NCBI GenBank assembly: GCA_903951445.1
Contig: CAJBBZ010000157.1
Span: 1-56,855, forward strand
Direction: 5' to 3'
From: an uncultured beta proteobacterium
GTDB taxonomy: Bacteria; Pseudomonadota; Gammaproteobacteria; Burkholderiales; Burkholderiaceae_C
Length of the DNA: 56,855 nt
Part shown: positions 4,684 to 24,195 of the stretch, in pieces
Numbering within the stretch: position 1 is the first letter of the stretch
Layout: every line of letters starts with the position of its first letter
The notes under the pieces: generated by a model
Told to the model about the DNA's origin: nothing
Database searches by the model: none
Seen by the model: the letters and a program-made list of their open reading frames with translations, nothing else
Translations under genes and position numbers: made by a program

Positions 4684-5525
4684 ATCGCAATCTGGCGGCA
4701 TCGGTCCGTGCACGCCTGAAACAACACGCCGACGCAACGAAGCAAGACTTCAATTTGACGCTCACGCATTACGGACTGGAGCGTTTGCTATACCGACTGT
4801 CCGTTTCCGAGCACGCGTCAAATTTCCTGCTCAAGGGTGCCTTGCTGTTCACGCTTTGGTATGACCTTGCACACCGACCCACCCGCGACCTTGATCTTTT
4901 GGGCTTTGGCCCGGATGATGTGGATACAGCCGTTCGCATTTTTCAGGAAATTTGCCTCACCTCTGTAGAGGACGGGGTAGTGTTTGACCCCGATTCCGTC
5001 AGGGGGTCGAGCATCCGCAAAGAGGTAGGCTATGGAGGTGTGCGGATCGACATTCAGGCAACGTTGGATGGTGCGCGCATCGCACTGCAAGTTGATATCG
5101 GGTTCGGCGACGCGGTGACTCCGGCACCACAGGCGATCAGCTACCCGGTACTGCTGGAAGATTTTCCGGCACCACAACTGCGGGCCTATCCGAAATACAC
5201 GGTTGTCGCCGAAAAGTTCCATGCAGTGTGCTTGCTGGGGCTGGCCAACACACGAATGAAGGATTACTTCGATTTGTGGGTGCTATTGGGGGACACTACG
5301 CTTGACCCCCTCGAAGTCCGCCGCGCCATTGAAGCAACTTTAGAGCGCCGCAAAATGCCCATGCCGACCACGGTGCCCATCGGATTCACAGACACCTTTG
5401 CAGACGATGCAATCAAGCAAACTCAGTGGAAAGCATTTCTGAAAAAGAACCAGCTTGATCCAATTGTGCTGGCCGATGTGGTGCGCAAATTGCGCGGAAG
5501 GTTTCTTGACGTCGGAGTCATCTGA
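4680..5525 (+). CDS. abiEii: AbiEii-type nucleotidyltransferase toxin
   Basis: Toxin of the AbiE pair, a DNA polymerase beta-like nucleotidyltransferase; family members block growth by NTP transfer to tRNA or similar targets. The protein is 281 residues. It shows LLKGALLFTLWYD followed by RPTRDLDLLGFG, matching the GG/GS-x-DxD active-site arrangement, and a later KEVGYGGVRIDIQ and EKFHAVCLLG pattern (Lys of motif IV). The GTG start at 4680 shares GTGA with the antitoxin stop. All the key motifs are present and no interruption is visible, so the module appears intact. Confidence 0.87.
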   Translation: MNRNLAASVRARLKQHADATKQDFNLTLTHYGLERLLYRLSVSEHASNFLLKGALLFTLWYDLAHRPTRDLDLLGFGPDDVDTAVRIFQEICLTSVEDGVVFDPDSVRGSSIRKEVGYGGVRIDIQATLDGARIALQVDIGFGDAVTPAPQAISYPVLLEDFPAPQLRAYPKYTVVAEKFHAVCLLGLANTRMKDYFDLWVLLGDTTLDPLEVRRAIEATLERRKMPMPTTVPIGFTDTFADDAIKQTQWKAFLKKNQLDPIVLADVVRKLRGRFLDVGVI

Positions 5526-16605: not shown

Positions 16606-17308
16606 AGTCGCGCTCTTTCCAGCGACCTTCTATGGAGATGGGAACAAAGCGGGCGAACATAGATTCTGAAAAATACTGATTTTGCGCCGCTGCTTTGATG
16701 GCTTCAAGGTGCGGACCGGTGCGCGCAAAGGCGTCCATGGCGGCCACACTGTCCCACACGGTAAAGGTAGCCTGGCGCAGAAAGGGCGCTTCGCCCAAAC
16801 CCACGGCCAGTTGCACGCCCTGCACGCCTTCGATGGCGTTTTGCGAGGGTGGCGCATGGTTCCAAAAAGCCGAGGCTTTGCGCAAGTGAATCGAGGCGCG
16901 TGTCAGCGCCGCGATAGGGCCTTGGGTGGGAGCACTGCAGGTCACATCCAGCGCCGTGCCATCCCAGCTGCCCCGGCAAGACCAGGTGCGCAATTGCAAA
17001 ACACAGAGTTCGCGGGAGCGTTCCCGGTAGCCCTGCATCAAGGTGGAGTGTGCTAAAAAATCGGCAGCGGCCAGCGCGGTATGGAACACGAGAAAAAGCC
17101 CCTGGCGCGAGCTGCTGGGCTTGAGGCTGAAGCCGCCCTCATAGCCACTGCCCAGCACCTTGGCGAAACGTACACCGTCAATTGCTAACCACGGGCTGGG
17201 GCCTTTGACAATGCGCGTCCAACCCCACACCAGTGATGCCGGCGCAATATCTGCCAGTACCAGCACGATGGTCTGGTCGCTGTCCTTGCTCGCGTTGGCG
17301 GCATCCAT
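16598..17308 (-). CDS. crtA: Spheroidene monooxygenase CrtA
   Basis: Oxygenase that introduces the keto group at C-2 of spheroidene to make spheroidenone in the presence of O2. The 236-residue protein shows the CrtA pattern WGWTRIVKGPSPWLAIDGVR, KVLGSGYEGGFSLKPSSSRQ, FTVWDSVAAMDAFARTGPH and the C-terminal FARFVPISIEG. The frame is open to a GTG at 17338, but this codon lies inside the terminator hairpin; ATG 17308 is more plausible. No clear Shine-Dalgarno sequence precedes either start, so expression may depend on readthrough from puf. First gene of crtADC. Confidence 0.93.
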   Translation of the reverse strand: MDAANASKDSDQTIVLVLADIAPASLVWGWTRIVKGPSPWLAIDGVRFAKVLGSGYEGGFSLKPSSSRQGLFLVFHTALAAADFLAHSTLMQGYRERSRELCVLQLRTWSCRGSWDGTALDVTCSAPTQGPIAALTRASIHLRKASAFWNHAPPSQNAIEGVQGVQLAVGLGEAPFLRQATFTVWDSVAAMDAFARTGPHLEAIKAAAQNQYFSESMFARFVPISIEGRWKERDYD

Positions 17309-17327
17309 GTCTGGGTGTCCAAATAAA

Positions 17328-17357
17328 AAGGCCTCCACCGCGATGTGTGGAGGCCTT
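17328..17357 (-). terminator. Rho-independent terminator between pufC and crtA
   Basis: An 11-base perfect stem (AAGGCCTCCAC / GTGGAGGCCTT, eight-base loop) followed on the minus strand by TTTTTATTT. It begins 14 bases after the pufC stop and its T-run lies just before the crtA start, so it should end most puf transcripts and set a low level of readthrough into crtADC. Confidence 0.85.
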
Positions 17358-17371
17358 GAGGTTTTCCGAGT

Positions 17372-18400
17372 TTAGGGCTTGGCCAGAGCCTGCAACTCGG
17401 GGTAGTCCTTCGCCATCGCCGCACCATACAGCGGCTTGAAGGCGCCCTGATGGCAGGTAGTGCAATTGACCTTGGCTACATCGCCCTTGGGTCCTAAACG
17501 GTGTTCAGGGAAAGACTTTGTCAGGGGCTCCATGTAGTCGTTGTTCAGATCACGCGCCATTCGGATACCGTGCCATGCGGTCACACGCTGCGGACGGGAT
17601 TCCTCCCAACCCTGGAAGTTGCGGGTGTTGTGGCAGTAGGTGCAGTTCACGCCCAGCGACTCTGACATATGGACCATCAGCGAGTAGGTGTGCTCGGTCT
17701 GTTTGGTGGACGTGCGATTAGCGTAATTTCCTAAGCCTGTCATGGCCTCAGTGCTATTGACACGGATGGGCGCTGCGTCTTTCAGATAAGGCGTAAAAGG
17801 ATCAAAAGGCAGCGAGGTCAATCCGACGGATCTGGAGGCTAGATTTTGCCCGGCCAGATCGCCCATGGCACTATTGGCGTACTTGCGGTCTTTGGGCGCA
17901 AACCAGACATTGGTCGGGATGTTGTTACCCCGATGGCAGGTGTAGCAAGTCACGCCGGTCTCGGCCACGTGCGATTTCCAGTCTTGATTGACGCGCTGCG
18001 TCATCTGGATCATGCGCCGCGCCACCACCTTGGTGTATTTGCCATCATCGGCGAAGTTCTCGGTGTTGTGGCAATAAGCACAACCGGCATCAGGAGCCAC
18101 CCATTGGGTAATAGAGGCCATATGTCGGTTGAATTGCGCCACACTCAGATCACCAAGCACTTGCACGTTTTGGTACACCTCTTTGGCCTTGGGGCCGTCC
18201 GCCGCTGCGGCATCGGCAGGAGCCGGTGCCTGATTCAGCGAAGCTTGCTTGAGCAAGGTGCGCGGGTTGTAAATCTGCTCCATACCGGTGCCCCGATACC
18301 CGGTTTGTACCGTCTCAATAGGCGGGCGTTCGCAACCGGTCAGTAGACCGAAGGCTAGCGGTGCAAGCAGGGACAGCGCGAGTTTCATGGTTCGTTTCAT
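17372..18400 (-). CDS. pufC: Photosynthetic reaction centre cytochrome c subunit PufC
   Basis: Tetrahaem cytochrome that re-reduces the photo-oxidised special pair from the periplasmic side. The 342-residue precursor has a lipoprotein signal ([13 protein letters not shown], lipobox Cys23), so it is anchored by a diacylglycerol. Four haem motifs are present: CAYCH (107-111), CYTCH (152-156), CTYCH (253-257) and CTTCH (313-317), with Met ligands in the preceding helices ([16 protein letters not shown]). ATG 18400 shares ATGA with the pufM stop; the longer upstream frame is a shadow of pufM. Last gene before the terminator. Confidence 0.97.
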
Positions 18401-19371
18401 GGTTTTGCTCCCAGGATGGCCGGATCGATTACCACCGGATTGCCCAGCGGGTAAGCGGGTACGACATGGTGTTTGACAGACCACAGATACCAGTTGTCCA
18501 CCACGGTTCCGGTCAGCAGGATGCCGACGCCGCCGACCAGTGGGCACAGTACAGCGAACCACCAGGCCCAGCGGTGAATGGATTCCATCGTGGCGTTAAA
18601 GCCCATGGTCCAGCGCCAGAACAGGGCGGCGCGTTCCGAGGCGGTACCGCGATCGACAATTTGCTCGATCTCGCGCTCACCACCGTAGCGGCTGACCGCC
18701 AAAATTGTGGCGCCGTGCATCGCAAACAAGAGCACCGAGCCGTACAGGAACACGATAGACAGCGCGTGGAAGGGGTTGTAGAACAAATTGCCGTAGCGCA
18801 GGGATAGGGCCGAGACCCAATCGAGGTGCGGGAATATGCCAAACGGTACCGCTTCAGACCAGCTACCCATCATGATGGGGCGGAAGAATCCGCACACCAG
18901 ATACAGCCATATCGCCGCTGCAAAAGCCCATGCCACGTGCGTGCCCAAACCCAGCTGCCGTGCGCGCCGGTAGGTGCGTGCCCACCATAGCAGGATGGAG
19001 ACGGTGAGCATAAAGCCGACGATCAACCACCAGCCGCCTTGGGCCAGCGGCGGAATGCCCAGACCATAGGCCGGCGCTGGCGGCTCCAGTGCCAGCCAGA
19101 ACAGTTGGCGCAGTAGCTGGATCGGATTCCAGTCCACCGAGGCCAGCATATTAAAGCCGATGATGTTGAAGGCCGCGATGCCGAAGATCAGCGAAGCGAC
19201 ACCCAGCGAGCCAAGATAGATCGGGCCGATTTGCGCGTTGCCGATGCGTCCGAGCAAGTGAAACAGAAATGGGGTGCCTAGGCGCTTGTCATCGCCGCGC
19301 GGCAGAGGCACGCCGTCGTGCAACGGTCCAACCGGTTGCACCGAGGTAAACAGATTTTGATATTGGGCCAT
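18397..19371 (-). CDS. pufM: Reaction centre M subunit PufM
   Basis: M chain of the type II reaction centre, carrying half of the bacteriochlorophyll, bacteriopheophytin and quinone cofactors. The 324-residue protein has five membrane helices and the expected motifs: [75 protein letters not shown] with the special-pair and iron His residues, and [20 protein letters not shown] for the iron and quinone-A site. Length matches the PufC-containing type. It starts 19 bases after the pufL stop. Confidence 0.98.
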
Positions 19372-19390
19372 GTCAGTATCCTCCGTGTGT

Positions 19391-20218
19391 TCAGGTACGC
19401 CAGATCGGCATGTTCAGCCACCAGCCCCACCATTCAGGCCAGGCGCCGGTCCAGAATGGTCCGCTGACCACGATGCAGACAATGCCGAACCAGACCCCGG
19501 CCAGTGCCAGGAACAAGCCCAGGCGGTGAATCCCCAAGGTGCCTACCGAGTAGCCGATAAAGTCGCGGAAGAAGGTGTCCTCATGCTCCGGCGTCTTGAC
19601 CACTTCGCCCTTGCCAGGGTTGGTGGCTGATAGCACCAAGCCGCCGTGCATCGACAGGGCCAGCACCGTTGCAAAGAACAGGCTTGCCGCAATCATGTGC
19701 CAGGGGTTGTAGTGAAAGTGCAGGTACTGGTAGGCCGTGTTGCTCACCCAGTCCAGATGGCTGTAAATGCCATAGGGGAAAGCGTGGCCCCAAGCGCCCA
19801 TCAGCACTGGCCGTATCACTTGCAAGCTAACGTAGGCCAAAATCGCCATACCGAAGGCGACGGGCACATGCAAGCCCATGCCTAGCTTGCGAGCGATCTC
19901 GACTTCGCGCAACGCCCAGGACACAAAGGCCCCGATGGCACATATGGTGATGATCTGCCACAGGCCGCCTTCCATCATCGGCGCAAAGCGCAGACCATAA
20001 GAGATATCCGGCGGGGCGATATTGATTTGCCAGAGATTCCAGGTCGGGCCCATGGCCGCGCCCCACAAAATCATCACGGTGCCTAGAGCGGCAAAGAAAA
20101 TCGTCGTTATTCCGAAGAATCCGACATAAAAAGGACCGACCCAAAAGTCAAACAGGTCGCCCCCGAAAAGCGTTCCACCGCGCACGCGGTATTTACGTTC
20201 AAAGCTAAGCATGGACAT
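19391..20218 (-). CDS. pufL: Reaction centre L subunit PufL
   Basis: L chain of the type II reaction centre. The 275-residue protein begins [20 protein letters not shown], continues [16 protein letters not shown], the strongly conserved family N-terminus, and holds [36 protein letters not shown], with the special-pair and accessory-chlorophyll His ligands, and the [20 protein letters not shown] quinone-B region with the iron His. Five membrane helices. It is separated from pufA by 128 bases holding a stem-loop, the usual site of differential mRNA decay in puf operons. Confidence 0.98.
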
Positions 20219-20286
20219 AGTTGCATCCTCCGACCTGTCTACGGTCTAACGGTTCCAGCGCGGTGAGGTCAATAGTTCGAAAAAGA

Positions 20287-20324
20287 CAGACGCAGGGTTC
20301 AAAAATATGAGCCACGTGCGCCTG
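20287..20324 (-). promoter_or_regulatory. Stem-loop between pufA and pufL
   Basis: CAGGCGCA pairs with TGCGTCTG (eight pairs, one G-U) across a 22-base loop on the minus strand, followed by a T-rich run (TCTTTTT). In other purple bacteria a hairpin at this place stabilises the upstream pufBA segment and causes an excess of LH1 over reaction centre; the same role is inferred here. The stem is modest. Confidence 0.45.
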
Positions 20325-20346
20325 CCGGAATAAAGACCAAAGGCCC

Positions 20347-20535
20347 TTACTTTTGCGGCAGAGCCGCGTTCTGAGCAGCCTTCGCGGCCTTGGCCGTATC
20401 GGGATGCCAGCTGTTGATGTTGTAACGATCGCCACTGATCTGTATCAGATGAATCGTTGTTGACACAAACGCGATCAACAGTCCTGTTAACACGACCGCC
20501 TTGCGGGGGTCTATTACACGCCACATGCGCCACAT
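20347..20535 (-). CDS. pufA: LH1 alpha polypeptide PufA
   Basis: Core antenna alpha chain, 62 residues. MWRMWRVIDPRKAVVLTGLL is the LH1-alpha N-terminus (Rhodobacter-type MxRxWxxxDPRR), followed by one membrane helix with the bacteriochlorophyll ligand His29 (STTIHLIQ). The C-terminal tail is about 20 residues, rich in Ala and Lys. AAAGGA lies nine bases before the ATG. It starts 15 bases after the stop of orf74, so in this operon alpha and beta are not adjacent. Confidence 0.97.
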   Translation of the reverse strand: MWRMWRVIDPRKAVVLTGLLIAFVSTTIHLIQISGDRYNINSWHPDTAKAAKAAQNAALPQK

Positions 20536-20550
20536 AGGAATTTCCTTTCG

Positions 20551-20775
20551 TTAACTCAATTGAGAAATTACGGTATAGACGGCAGATTTCACGCCGACCA
20601 GTGTGGTCGTCGATCCCTCCGCCCCGGGTAGCCAGGTGCGCCAATTCAATGCCAACAACTGTCCAACCACGGCGAGCGCCATGAACACACAAAACATCAA
20701 TACAAATATCATCCGGTAGCCATTGAGGTGGCTATCTGAAATAAATGTCGCATCCGTTTGGTTTACTTGGGCCAT
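20551..20775 (-). CDS. Orf74: single-span membrane protein between pufB and pufA, unknown
   Basis: A 74-residue protein with a strong Shine-Dalgarno sequence (GGAGGT, five bases before ATG), 23 bases after pufB and 15 before pufA. Residues 1-20 are polar (MAQVNQTDATFISDSHLNGY). Residues 22-44 form one helix without any His (MIFVLMFCVFMALAVVGQLL then ALN). NWRTWLPGAEG follows, resembling the WRPW end of LH1 beta, where Gln39 stands at the place of the chlorophyll-binding His of PufB (six residues before the Trp). The tail TLVGVKSAVYTVISQLS is amphipathic. It does not look like PufX, PufQ or the alpha chain. Placement and spacing argue for a structural or assembly partner of LH1; function is inference. 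Confidence 0.85.
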   Translation of the reverse strand: MAQVNQTDATFISDSHLNGYRMIFVLMFCVFMALAVVGQLLALNWRTWLPGAEGSTTTLVGVKSAVYTVISQLS

Positions 20776-20798
20776 ACATACCTCCATTTTTTGGTTCG

Positions 20799-20942
20799 TT
20801 AGAACCAGGGACGCCAGATCCACACCAAGCTGTGCGCGAAGAACGCGCCCACGGCCCACAAGATGTACCCTTGTACGTAGTACTGGTGGAACTCCTGGGC
20901 CTCGTCGTCTGTCAGCCCTGAGGGGTTAGCTGCATCAGTCAT
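20799..20942 (-). CDS. pufB: LH1 beta polypeptide PufB
   Basis: Core antenna beta chain of 47 residues, too short for most ORF callers. The sequence reads [47 protein letters not shown]. The GLTDxEAQEFH motif, the helix with ligand His37 and the C-terminal WIWRPWF are diagnostic of LH1 beta. AGAGG occurs upstream of the ATG. It is the first gene of the puf structural operon and is followed by orf74 rather than directly by pufA. Confidence 0.97.
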
Positions 20943-20979
20943 AGATAGTGCCTCTCACAAAATGCCTTTCGGCGACTCC

Positions 20980-20999
20980 CCGCACCCGGATGGGTGCGG
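20980..20999 (-). promoter_or_regulatory. Stem-loop in the pufB leader
   Basis: CCGCACCC-GGAT-GGGTGCGG is a perfect eight-base stem with a tetraloop, 38 bases upstream of the pufB ATG and 90 after the bchZ stop. No T-run follows, so it is more likely an mRNA 5'-stabilising or processing structure than a terminator. A second short stem (CCGG-CTTGT-CCGG) lies at about 21044-21056. Confidence 0.6.
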
Positions 21000-21089
21000 A
21001 ACGGACTGCAGCAGCAGGAATGCCACCGCAGTTGAACCCCCGGACAAGCCGGAGGATTGACCGATCAGACGAACACCAAAACACGGCTT

Positions 21090-22556
21090 TCACGCGTGTG
21101 CTCCAGCATTTGCCTGACCGAACAATTCAATAAACCTGGCTGCCTCCACCTGCGAGCGCCCGGTCTCGCGCGCATCGCGCTCGGCCTGGTCGCGCATGCG
21201 TTTGGCGGCAGAAATACGTACGAGCACGGGCTGCTGCTCCAGCAGCTCTTCCATCAGTCGCTGTGCCTCGGGCTCCCAGGGCAGCAGGGAGTCATCGATG
21301 GCGCGGCTCGGGCTCGCTTCAATCTTGTCTAGCTCCGTGCCCAGCGGCAGGATGTGAAATAGCGCGTCAAACAAGGCGTTGCAAAACTCTTGAATGATGT
21401 AAGTGGCGCCGGCATAGCCCATAAACGGCGTACCGGTATGGCGGCGGATGATGGGCAGCGGAAAACTAGCCGGAATAAAGCTGGTTTTCATCATGCCGCC
21501 ACCGCCGCATTCGGCCAGGTAAATCCGCTCGTTGTAGCTGCCGTACAGCACCAGCGGTGTTTTTTCGGTGACCAGTTTGCGCACCTCGGCGTTATCAGTT
21601 TTTGCTCCCGCCAGGCGGGATATTGCAAAGTTGCAAGGCAGGCCCATTTCGTCTTCGAGGAAATGGCGGATGCCGCGCGTATAGGTTTCGTTGGCTACCA
21701 CGCCAAAGTTGGCAGTGCCAAAAAAGTCTTGCGTCACCGAGCGCCACAAGTCCCAAATCGGCTTGATGGTGCTGTGCTTTTCACGCTCGATAAATGGCTC
21801 GGGGTCCAGGCCCAACAGCTCGCCTAATTTGCGTAAAAACTTGGTAGTGCTGTGTAGTCCGATCGGCGCTTGCAGATAGGGGCGCTCCAGTGCCTCGCAC
21901 AGCATGCGGCCAAATTCGCGGTACATGCAAATGTTGACATCGGCTTCTACCAGACGCGATACATCGGCCAGGTGGCTGCCCAGCGGGAACACCATATTGA
22001 CTTCAGCGCCTATGCCTTGCACCAGGCGGCGGATCTCAGCCAGGTCGCTCGGGCAATTAAAGGTGCCGTAGCTCGGCCCGATGATGTTCACGCGTGGACG
22101 CTCACCGACTTTGCGCTCACGCTTGGGTACTTCGCGCAAACCATATTGCTGCCACAGCCAGAACATGGCGCGGTTGGCGCATTGCCACTGGTCTTCGTCA
22201 ATCGTGCGTGGCAAAAAGCGCTGCAAATTCGTGCCTTCGGGCGTGACGCCGCCCCCAATCATTTCGGCGATAGAGCCGGTCACCACTACCGAGGGCAGGT
22301 CCGGGTCCAGGGCCGCATGGGCACGGCGCATGGAGCCTTCGGTGCCTTCGCGCCCAAGTTGCTCTTCGGCCAAGCCCGTCACCACGATGGGCAATTCATG
22401 CGGCGGCAGCGCATCGGTGTAATGCAACACCGAAGTCACGGGCAGGTTCTCACAACCCACCGGTCCGTCAATCACCACTTGCAAGCCTTTGATGGCGGTG
22501 AATACATACACCGCACCCCAGTAGCCACCTGCGCGGTCGTGGTCCAACACTAGCAT
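21090..22556 (-). CDS. bchZ: Chlorophyllide a reductase subunit Z, BchZ
   Basis: Catalytic-component subunit of the nitrogenase-like chlorophyllide reductase, which reduces ring B to give the bacteriochlorin. The 488-residue protein starts [20 protein letters not shown], followed by [21 protein letters not shown] with the Cys that helps to hold the Fe-S cluster with BchY, and later [19 protein letters not shown]. Length fits the family. It lies 76 bases after bchY and is followed by the puf leader; the usual bchCXYZ-puf readthrough is expected. Confidence 0.97.
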
Positions 22557-22632
22557 GGCAGGCCCTCCGAACGTACAGCGCGCGCTGCGCTATGCGCAGT
22601 GACGTCAAAGTGAAAACAGACGCACGGGCGAC

Positions 22633-24195
22633 TCATATCATGGCCTCCGCTTTACGTTTCTTAGCTTGCTTTTCCAGCAAGCGGCGTGTCTCGGCCTTGA
22701 ACTCAGGACGGTCTTGCGGTACGCCGTGGGCGCTTTCCCATACACCGGTGGCATGGCCGGTACCGGCATCGCCAAAAAAGGCCTTCATTTCGTCAAAGCG
22801 CGACTTGTTGCCAATGGCTGCGTTGATCACTTGCGCCAGCGAACCCGCGCCTGCCGGGCCCATCAGCGGGCGCGCAGAAATCAGGTTGGTGAAGTACAGG
22901 CCGGGGATGGACATTTCTTTAGCCATTTGCACTACGGGCGTAGTGCCAATCGCCAGGTCAGGCTTCCATTCGTGCATGGCCGCCAGGTCTTGTTCCAGCG
23001 AAGCGCGGTATTGCACGTGCACGCCGTGGGCTTCGAGCCACTGGCAATCAGGCTCGCTCCAGGCCGTGCGCGGGCAGGCGGTGCCTACATAGCGCAGGTC
23101 AGCACCACTTTCCACCAACAGGCGCGCTACCAGCAATTCCGAACCTTCGTAACCGCTGAGCGTAATGCGCCCTTTGATCGGCATGCGCGCCAAGCCGCCT
23201 TTGATGGCCGGCAACATGATGTTTTTCACCATGTCGATTTTTGCTTGCGGCACGTTGGCCGCATTGCCAATCGCTTGTAGCCAGGCTTCGGTGCCATCGT
23301 GGCCCACCGGTGCCGAACCGACGATGGGGCGGCCAGCGGCTTCAAACTCGCGGATGCTGGCGGTGTAAAACGGATGAATCGCCCCCACGACCGCGCAGTC
23401 CAGCGCGGCATACAGCTCGCGCCATTCGCGGGTGGGTACGACCGGGCCGGCAGCCAAGCCCATGGGCTCGAGCATGCGGCCAATGATCACCGGGTCAGCG
23501 GGGAACATTTCACCGATCAGGGTAACCGTGGGTTTGTCAGAGCGACCGGTACGCGGGGCTTGCACCGGGCCCGCCAGCACTTCTTCGCGGGCAAATTTCA
23601 GCATGGCACCGGCCAGCACGTCTTTGGCTTCGGCATGGGTGGGTACGCCAAAACCAGGCACGTCGATACCGATGATGCGCACGCCATTGATGTCTTTGGG
23701 CAGCAGTTGCAGCGGCACGCCGCTGGCTGTGGGCACGCACAAATTAATGATGACGATGGCGTCGTAATTGGCCGGGTCGGCTTCTTTGTAAACCGCTTCG
23801 CGAATGTCTTCAAACAGTTTGCCGGTGACCAGCGATTCGGAGTTAAAGGGCACGTAACCCACGCTGCGTTTGGCGCCGTAAAAATGGGAGGTAAAGGTCA
23901 GGCCATACACGCAGCAGGCCGAGCCAGACAGGATGGTCGCGGTACGCCGCATACGCAGACTCACACGCAGCGAACCAAAGGCTGGGCACATGCTTTGCGG
24001 CTGGTCGTGCGGACCGGCTTTGGGGTCTACGGGATAGTCTTTGGCGTATTGCGCCAGCACTTCGGATTTGCCGGAGGCCTTGGCTGCCGCCAGCATTTTT
24101 TCGCCGCCCGCGTGGCAGCCCATGCCGTCGCCTTCAATGGCAGTGCTCACGCCCGCTGGCGCTGTTGCATTGACGATTGGAATGGTTTTGCTCAT
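22633..24195 (-). CDS. bchY: Chlorophyllide a reductase subunit Y, BchY
   Basis: Partner of BchZ in the NifDK-like catalytic component of chlorophyllide a reductase. The 520-residue protein has the family Cys positions in QPQSMCPAFGSLRVSLRMRR and SGSACCVYGLTFTSHFYGAK, which bind the 4Fe-4S cluster, then NLCVPTASGVPLQLLP and IGIDVPGFGVPTHAEAKDVL. Slightly long at the N-terminus (GDGMGCHAGGEKML). It begins 20 bases after the bchX stop. Confidence 0.97.
   Translation of the reverse strand: MSKTIPIVNATAPAGVSTAIEGDGMGCHAGGEKMLAAAKASGKSEVLAQYAKDYPVDPKAGPHDQPQSMCPAFGSLRVSLRMRRTATILSGSACCVYGLTFTSHFYGAKRSVGYVPFNSESLVTGKLFEDIREAVYKEADPANYDAIVIINLCVPTASGVPLQLLPKDINGVRIIGIDVPGFGVPTHAEAKDVLAGAMLKFAREEVLAGPVQAPRTGRSDKPTVTLIGEMFPADPVIIGRMLEPMGLAAGPVVPTREWRELYAALDCAVVGAIHPFYTASIREFEAAGRPIVGSAPVGHDGTEAWLQAIGNAANVPQAKIDMVKNIMLPAIKGGLARMPIKGRITLSGYEGSELLVARLLVESGADLRYVGTACPRTAWSEPDCQWLEAHGVHVQYRASLEQDLAAMHEWKPDLAIGTTPVVQMAKEMSIPGLYFTNLISARPLMGPAGAGSLAQVINAAIGNKSRFDEMKAFFGDAGTGHATGVWESAHGVPQDRPEFKAETRRLLEKQAKKRKAEAMI

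Follow-up and report, generated by a model that had tools for sequence, protein, structure and literature searches.

The small gene between pufB and pufA in the window (the whole stretch of 56,855 nucleotides from an uncultured beta proteobacterium analysed here) is, on the evidence of its sequence, a full-length paralogue of the long-tailed beta subunit of light-harvesting complex 1 (LH1 beta, PufB). This identity is the new part of our analysis; the gene itself is already known as ORF2 or ORF74, without a function. A previous sequence-only reading described the product as an unexplained membrane protein, a description that we do not retain because descent from LH1 beta can be demonstrated for the protein and the gene is known under these names. 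We tentatively propose that ORF74, as we call it hereafter, is a duplicated LH1 beta that lost its usual ligand, belongs to the same line as a group of genes upstream of pufB and PufQ, and acts as a PufQ-like small membrane factor, a reading that we regard as somewhat short of probable. Despite the well-studied operon, and with the report in Rubrivivax traced to 1994, most sampled phototrophs of the order Burkholderiales carry a small puf gene without known function.

The gene between pufB and pufA

On the minus strand of the window, the genes follow each other in the order bchZ, pufB, ORF74, pufA, pufL, pufM and pufC. The open reading frame list and the translation place ORF74 at 20551-20775 (minus strand, as for all features below), with an ATG start and 74 amino acids followed by a stop codon. 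Its ATG lies 23 nt after the pufB stop codon and its own stop codon 15 nt before the ATG of pufA. The Shine-Dalgarno sequence TGGAGGT (20780-20786) contains GGAGG at 20785-20781, 5 nt 5' of the start codon, and GGAGG or its variants also precede ORF74 in many homologues. The neighbouring pufB (20799-20942) encodes a short-tailed LH1 beta with His37 and scored 71 bits with NF040862 (cut-off 61), and pufA (20347-20535) encodes LH1 alpha, scoring 26 bits with PF00556 (cut-off 23) and 33.6 bits with NF040861, just below the cut-off of 35. The pufL gene lies at 19391-20218, and pufM (18397-19371) scored 536 bits with TIGR01115 at 18460-19371. We take the frame at 17372-18562, which contains CxxCH motifs and is listed from a GTG with the true start probably internal, to be pufC, and the frame at 21090-22556 to be bchZ. 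The latter is separated from the pufB start by 147 nt, which leaves no room for a non-overlapping upstream gene of 222 nt.

The C-terminus of PufA, NAALPQK, fits the [A/S]-[P/A]-[L/M/I]-P motif that excerpts of PMC9640540 tie to binding of the cytochrome subunit, and pufC is present downstream. The genome assembly (294 contigs) shows no LH2 genes, because PF00556 finds just pufB and pufA in it; ORF74 itself is absent from these matches (E up to 0.001). In Rhodobacter, the ratio of LH1 to reaction centre (RC) transcripts is set by a feature downstream of pufBA (excerpts of PMC5725709); a hairpin in the pufA-pufL gap of the window (20219-20346) was not significant (z -1.0 against shuffles), and Rfam gave no matches within 17000-22800.

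That ORF74 is a real gene, as the sequence-only reading had held, is borne out by its coordinates, Shine-Dalgarno sequence, short gaps and selection alike. The pooled pN/pS of 0.245 among 20 close homologues indicates purifying selection, and residues 45-54 have no amino-acid changes among them. Homologues in related puf operons, on which that reading had made its case depend, were looked for and found: in an order-level Burkholderiales sample, 47 puf regions could be read and ORF74 follows pufB in 39 of them, including G112, where the contig ends before pufA. A chance open reading frame was ruled out because of this selection, the invariant residues and the conservation of the gene across the puf regions. 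Five of the 47 regions lack ORF74 and have one long-tailed, His-bearing PufB (G089, G226, G240, G314 and G344), and three lack it and have a short PufB (G129, G249 and G280); the pufM-containing genomes G207 and G361, with contig ends, and G420, with a fragment, were left out of the 47.

In the same sample of 399 genomes, the ORF74 profile matched 47 and pufM matched 49. Among 101 relatives, 21 had a match to ORF74, one of them (L016) being an ordinary long-tailed PufB, and when named genomes were scanned, 286 of the 310 candidates were confirmed and 80 kept, including those from Limnohabitans, Piscinibacter and Rubrivivax gelatinosus DSM 1709. The profile matched 7 of 274 genomes in the class sample and 20 of 398 in the phylum sample. 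Beyond the order, the readable matched loci were PufB or upstream proteins, and none was ORF74; at L144 and L197, there was no recognisable gene at the profile match.

Excerpts of PMC12817894 describe, for Rubrivivax gelatinosus, an ORF1 that precedes pufB and an ORF2 that precedes pufA, citing Nagashima 1994 and giving no function there; ORF2 was compared with PufA2 and rejected as its source. In Roseateles depolymerans, ORF74 (RD2015_RS05155) lies between pufB and pufA and, as excerpts of PMC10037100 report for this organism, is co-transcribed with pufBA on the major 1-kb puf transcript. It was among the top three most changed loci under carbon starvation and went down to 2.34% in an SP70 deletion mutant. 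A word search of the available text of an RC-LH1 review (PMC10214105) gave no mention of Rubrivivax, Roseateles or Rhodoferax, and no beta-like or PufQ-like reading of ORF2/ORF74 was found in the part of the literature within reach of our search, outside which lie most subscription papers and Nagashima 1994.

Relationship to LH1 beta

The ORF74 product consists of a single hydrophobic helix, followed by WRTWLPGAEG (residues 45-54, 20614-20643) and a C-terminal tail (20554-20613). Gln39 (codon CAG, 20659-20661) stands six residues ahead of the Trp in WRTWLPG, at the place of the ligand His37 of PufB; the one membrane helix and the replacement of the ligand His by Gln, both pointed out earlier, are thus seen in the translation and in the alignment with PufB. 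The homology to LH1 beta, hitherto a suggested likeness, is well supported. HH comparison with long-tailed LH1 beta gave probabilities of 99.5-99.8% over 73 columns with 33% identity, indicating common ancestry along the whole chain. PF00556 scores ORF74 at 15 bits, under the Pfam gathering cut-off of 23, which PufB and PufA pass. An alpha-type identity was rejected (HH probability of 3.8% with PufA), as was a relation to PufX (PF11511), with no Pfam match, an HH probability of 3.6% and a place other than downstream of pufM, in agreement with the earlier statement that PufX does not match.

The tail after WRTWLPG, which had also been recognised from the sequence, is common to ORF74 and long-tailed LH1 beta in the alignment and in the 73 HH columns, and part of it is a helix (residues 56-73) in a predicted model of low confidence (mean pLDDT 65, about 50-55 in the tail part). 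Foldseek found no matches of this model in the PDB. The loci matched outside the order mostly have a long-tailed beta chain with His, as found with an ORF74 search profile that favours tails; ORF74 therefore keeps the tail which is absent from the adjoining short PufB.

The ligand place in 111 distinct ORF74 sequences is occupied by Gln (93), Thr (8), Ser (6), His (2), Leu (1) or Gly (1), so that 109 lack the His that ligates bacteriochlorophyll of the B870 type. Like the homology and the conservation of the gene, this loss is shown. None of the 111 retains the Pro of WRPW, 106 have the second Trp of WRxW, and 92 are exactly 74 amino acids long. The EAxxF[HN] motif of PufB occurs in none, and the cytoplasmic-side His place of PufB holds His in eight. 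The members L018, L019, L020, L021 and L076 are also without the second Trp of WRxW, having Val, Ile or Leu. Two metagenome-assembled genomes (MAGs) of Curvibacter encode an ORF74-type protein with His at the ligand place and a normal pufB upstream (L057 and L059, both at 5001-5201); this His may be a reversion or a retained ligand.

The best PDB matches of ORF74 are solved long-tailed beta chains. The best E values were 6e-11 for ORF74, 9e-12 for PufB and 6.8e-9 for PufA, and since these matches are only moderate, the core of a close relative seems unsolved. All significant matches of ORF74 are multi-copy LH1 or LH2 beta chains, except chain 4 of 8k5o. This is a one-copy chain of 105 amino acids with an LHC domain, matched by the ORF74 profile with an E value of 0.0033 and by PufB with 1.5e-10. 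One PufQ sequence searched against the PDB matched no chain at E up to 1.

An upstream gene family and PufQ

In Rhodobacter, PufQ directs porphyrin into the formation of bacteriochlorophyll. According to excerpts of PMC5725709, deletion of pufQ leaves 6% of the bacteriochlorophyll, PufQ and ferrochelatase retrieve each other, with ferrochelatase activity unchanged by PufQ in the assay, and some purple bacteria have no PufQ. The sequence-only reading had excluded PufQ as a match for ORF74. For direct comparison this holds, as no PF05398 match is listed for ORF74 up to an E value of 10 and the gathering cut-off is not reached; PF05398 also gave no match in the genome of the window at E up to 0.001 and, in 11 genomes that carry a long PufB or an upstream gene, none over the cut-off. 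The statement is nonetheless incomplete, because an intermediate upstream family ties ORF74 and PufQ to each other.

A related gene lies directly upstream of pufB in some Proteobacteria and, within Burkholderiales, in the genus to which G129, G249 and G280 belong and which has the upstream gene and no ORF74. In the 10 PufQ loci examined, pufQ occupies this same position. In the alignment, the upstream proteins have Arg (L201, L141, L203 and L194), Tyr (L142) or His (L145) at the ligand place, and those of L160-L162 seem, by eye, to have Arg. The upstream beta-like proteins at L140 (1030-1344) and at L145 (1384-1698, genome G483) keep the ligand His next to a normal long PufB.

A hidden Markov model built from six upstream proteins, including that of L142, found long PufB (best E 3e-16), ORF74 (best E 7e-14) and the L160-L162 genes (2.5e-10 to 5.5e-8). 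It also found PufQ in nine of the 10 PufQ loci, with E values of 6.5e-4 to 0.05 and the first unrelated match at 0.077; the PufQ of L174 was missed at E up to 1. A nine-row upstream profile gave HH probabilities of 98.2-98.6% with ORF74, about 98% with long PufB and 93-95% with PufQ, and the controls gave less than 2% (reversed), 13% (PufX) and 3% (PufA). If L142, a row selected in part by eye, is left out, the upstream/PufQ probability drops to 74-82%. The real upstream/PufQ score was reached by none of 150 helix-preserving column shuffles, with or without L142. Compared directly, ORF74 and PufQ gave 33-70% over the helix only, a score reached by one of 150 shuffles, and PufQ and PufB gave 0.6-4.9%.

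A tree rooted on two LH2 beta rows, which has only 75 columns and long branches, separates ORF74, the upstream proteins and PufQ together from the light-harvesting beta chains (93/96). Within this tree, the upstream proteins and PufQ group together (98/95), and the value for ORF74 alone is 75/85. An alternative in which LH2 beta joins the upstream proteins and PufQ could not be rejected (p-AU 0.13), and in the first tree, without LH2 beta, ORF74 required two changes. We counted 130 distinct pufB loci for which 400 nt or more of upstream sequence was available. ORF74 is present in 95 of them and an upstream gene or PufQ in 19; no locus combines the two, and 16 are without either. This mutual exclusivity is suggestive at most because the loci came from ORF74- and PufQ-driven searches and represent few lineages. 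Across 113 loci with ORF74, counted without removal of duplicates and with six more unresolved, the gap between bchZ and pufB measures 105-207 nt, and therefore has no room for a non-overlapping 222-nt gene in those loci. Profiles and tree together support a shared descent of ORF74 and PufQ, and we regard the link between the two as moderately supported.

Possible roles and comparison with known systems

In the reading that we favour, an LH1 beta gene would have duplicated and the ORF74 copy would have lost the usual bacteriochlorophyll ligand, its product turning into a small, puf-encoded membrane factor. ORF74 would then belong to one line of ligand-less beta copies with the genes upstream of pufB and PufQ, as profiles and tree suggest without proving it. 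The protein would be made together with LH1 and may link the synthesis of LH1 to the supply of bacteriochlorophyll or to the assembly of alpha with beta, acting via its beta-like helix and not as a permanent pigmented member of the ring. We infer this PufQ-like role from the kinship described above; the weak direct signal between ORF74 and PufQ and the differing topologies expected of PufQ and beta chains speak against it. The C-terminus of a beta chain is periplasmic. That of PufQ is predicted to be cytoplasmic (excerpts of PMC5725709). In addition, the ferrochelatase of the window's genome resembles the type that the same excerpts ascribe to PufQ-less bacteria (two sequences compared, with uncertain starts and numbering), which speaks mildly against a PufQ-like ORF74.

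A broader evolutionary proposal, possible but less likely than not, is that one ancient duplication of beta gave rise to a ligand-less line including both Rhodobacter PufQ and betaproteobacterial ORF74. PufQ, the haem/bacteriochlorophyll switch protein, would therefore be a retired antenna subunit, and ORF74 would be the PufQ counterpart thought to be missing there. If ORF74 has a PufQ-type function, it would offer an explanation of how purple bacteria that lack PufQ match their pigment supply to the making of antennae, and would explain the origin of PufQ.

We consider it rather unlikely that ORF74 is instead a pigment-free structural subunit of RC-LH1, which would sit in or against the ring at a beta-like place, interrupt or seal it and set quinone exchange or ring size, gamma- or PufX-like in effect. 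This idea goes back to the sequence-only reading, which also suggested that such a subunit could dock the PufC-containing centre. The beta-like character over the whole length, the position on the LH1 transcript in Roseateles (excerpts of PMC10037100) and the invariance of WRTWLPGAEG among the close homologues would suit such a subunit, as would the one-copy 8k5o chain found by the ORF74 profile and the small extra helices in other cores, for example, the gamma-like peptides of Rhodopila (excerpts of PMC9640540). However, apart from the 8k5o chain, the significant PDB matches are multi-copy beta chains, the gene is missing in 8 of the 47 readable puf regions, the tree places it nearest, among ligand-less kin, to the upstream proteins and PufQ, and the PufQ sequence searched matches no solved chain. 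As a ring subunit, ORF74 would be a part of betaproteobacterial RC-LH1 unrecognised in the solved cores searched.

In plant antennae, Gln is a known ligand of chlorophyll, and Gln39 might ligate bacteriochlorophyll through its side-chain oxygen, making ORF74 a second, low-affinity beta that forms a spectrally different minority pair with PufA. The predominance of Gln at the ligand place, the retained second Trp, the two Curvibacter versions with His and the eight sequences with the cytoplasmic-side His agree with this explanation, but Thr, Ser, Leu or Gly at the ligand place in 16 of the 111 sequences and the complete absence of both the WRPW Pro and EAxxF[HN] make it improbable. It is scarcely credible that ORF74 is a spacer in translation or in the mRNA that adjusts the ratio of beta to alpha while its peptide is irrelevant, as the placement between pufB and pufA might suggest, since amino-acid sequence and length are strongly constrained. 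The fraction of C-ending codons, 0.59 in ORF74 versus 0.81 in pufB, 0.71 in pufA and 0.75 in pufL (98 loci, pufL in 81), would be in line with a spacer, but this measure failed its control, with 0.87 in pufQ versus 0.56 in pufB (5 of 10 PufQ loci). Because of the failed control, for which 1 of 10 PufQ loci was usable at first and then 5 of 10, together with 8 of 9 upstream loci, codon usage was dropped as an indicator of copy number.

Among known systems, ORF2 of Rubrivivax gelatinosus has the same place as the window gene and was read here in strain DSM 1709 (L098; the paper used IL144), and ORF74 of Roseateles depolymerans is likened by its place and the length in its name; we know of no difference between these and the window gene. 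PufX, the gamma-like peptides, protein-W and PufY/PufZ are proteins of the core that, like ORF74, are small and have a single helix. No sequence relation to ORF74 was found for PufX, and the others were compared through PDB searches only. PufQ (PF05398), with 72-75 amino acids versus about 74 in ORF74, likewise has a single helix, no bacteriochlorophyll ligand and a gene adjoining pufB, and is linked through the upstream family. Its gene lies upstream of pufB, whereas ORF74 lies between pufB and pufA, and its C-terminal sequence differs, with no direct profile match. The long-tailed LH1 beta chains (PufB, PF00556; for example, 7xxf_B, 8z81_B and 9m8m_B) resemble ORF74 over the full length, with one helix, WRxW[LF]PG after the helix and the same C-terminal tail. 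In contrast to them, ORF74 is without the His ligand and EAxxF[HN], has Thr or Ser for the Pro of WRPW, stays below the Pfam threshold and is the neighbour of a normal pufB.
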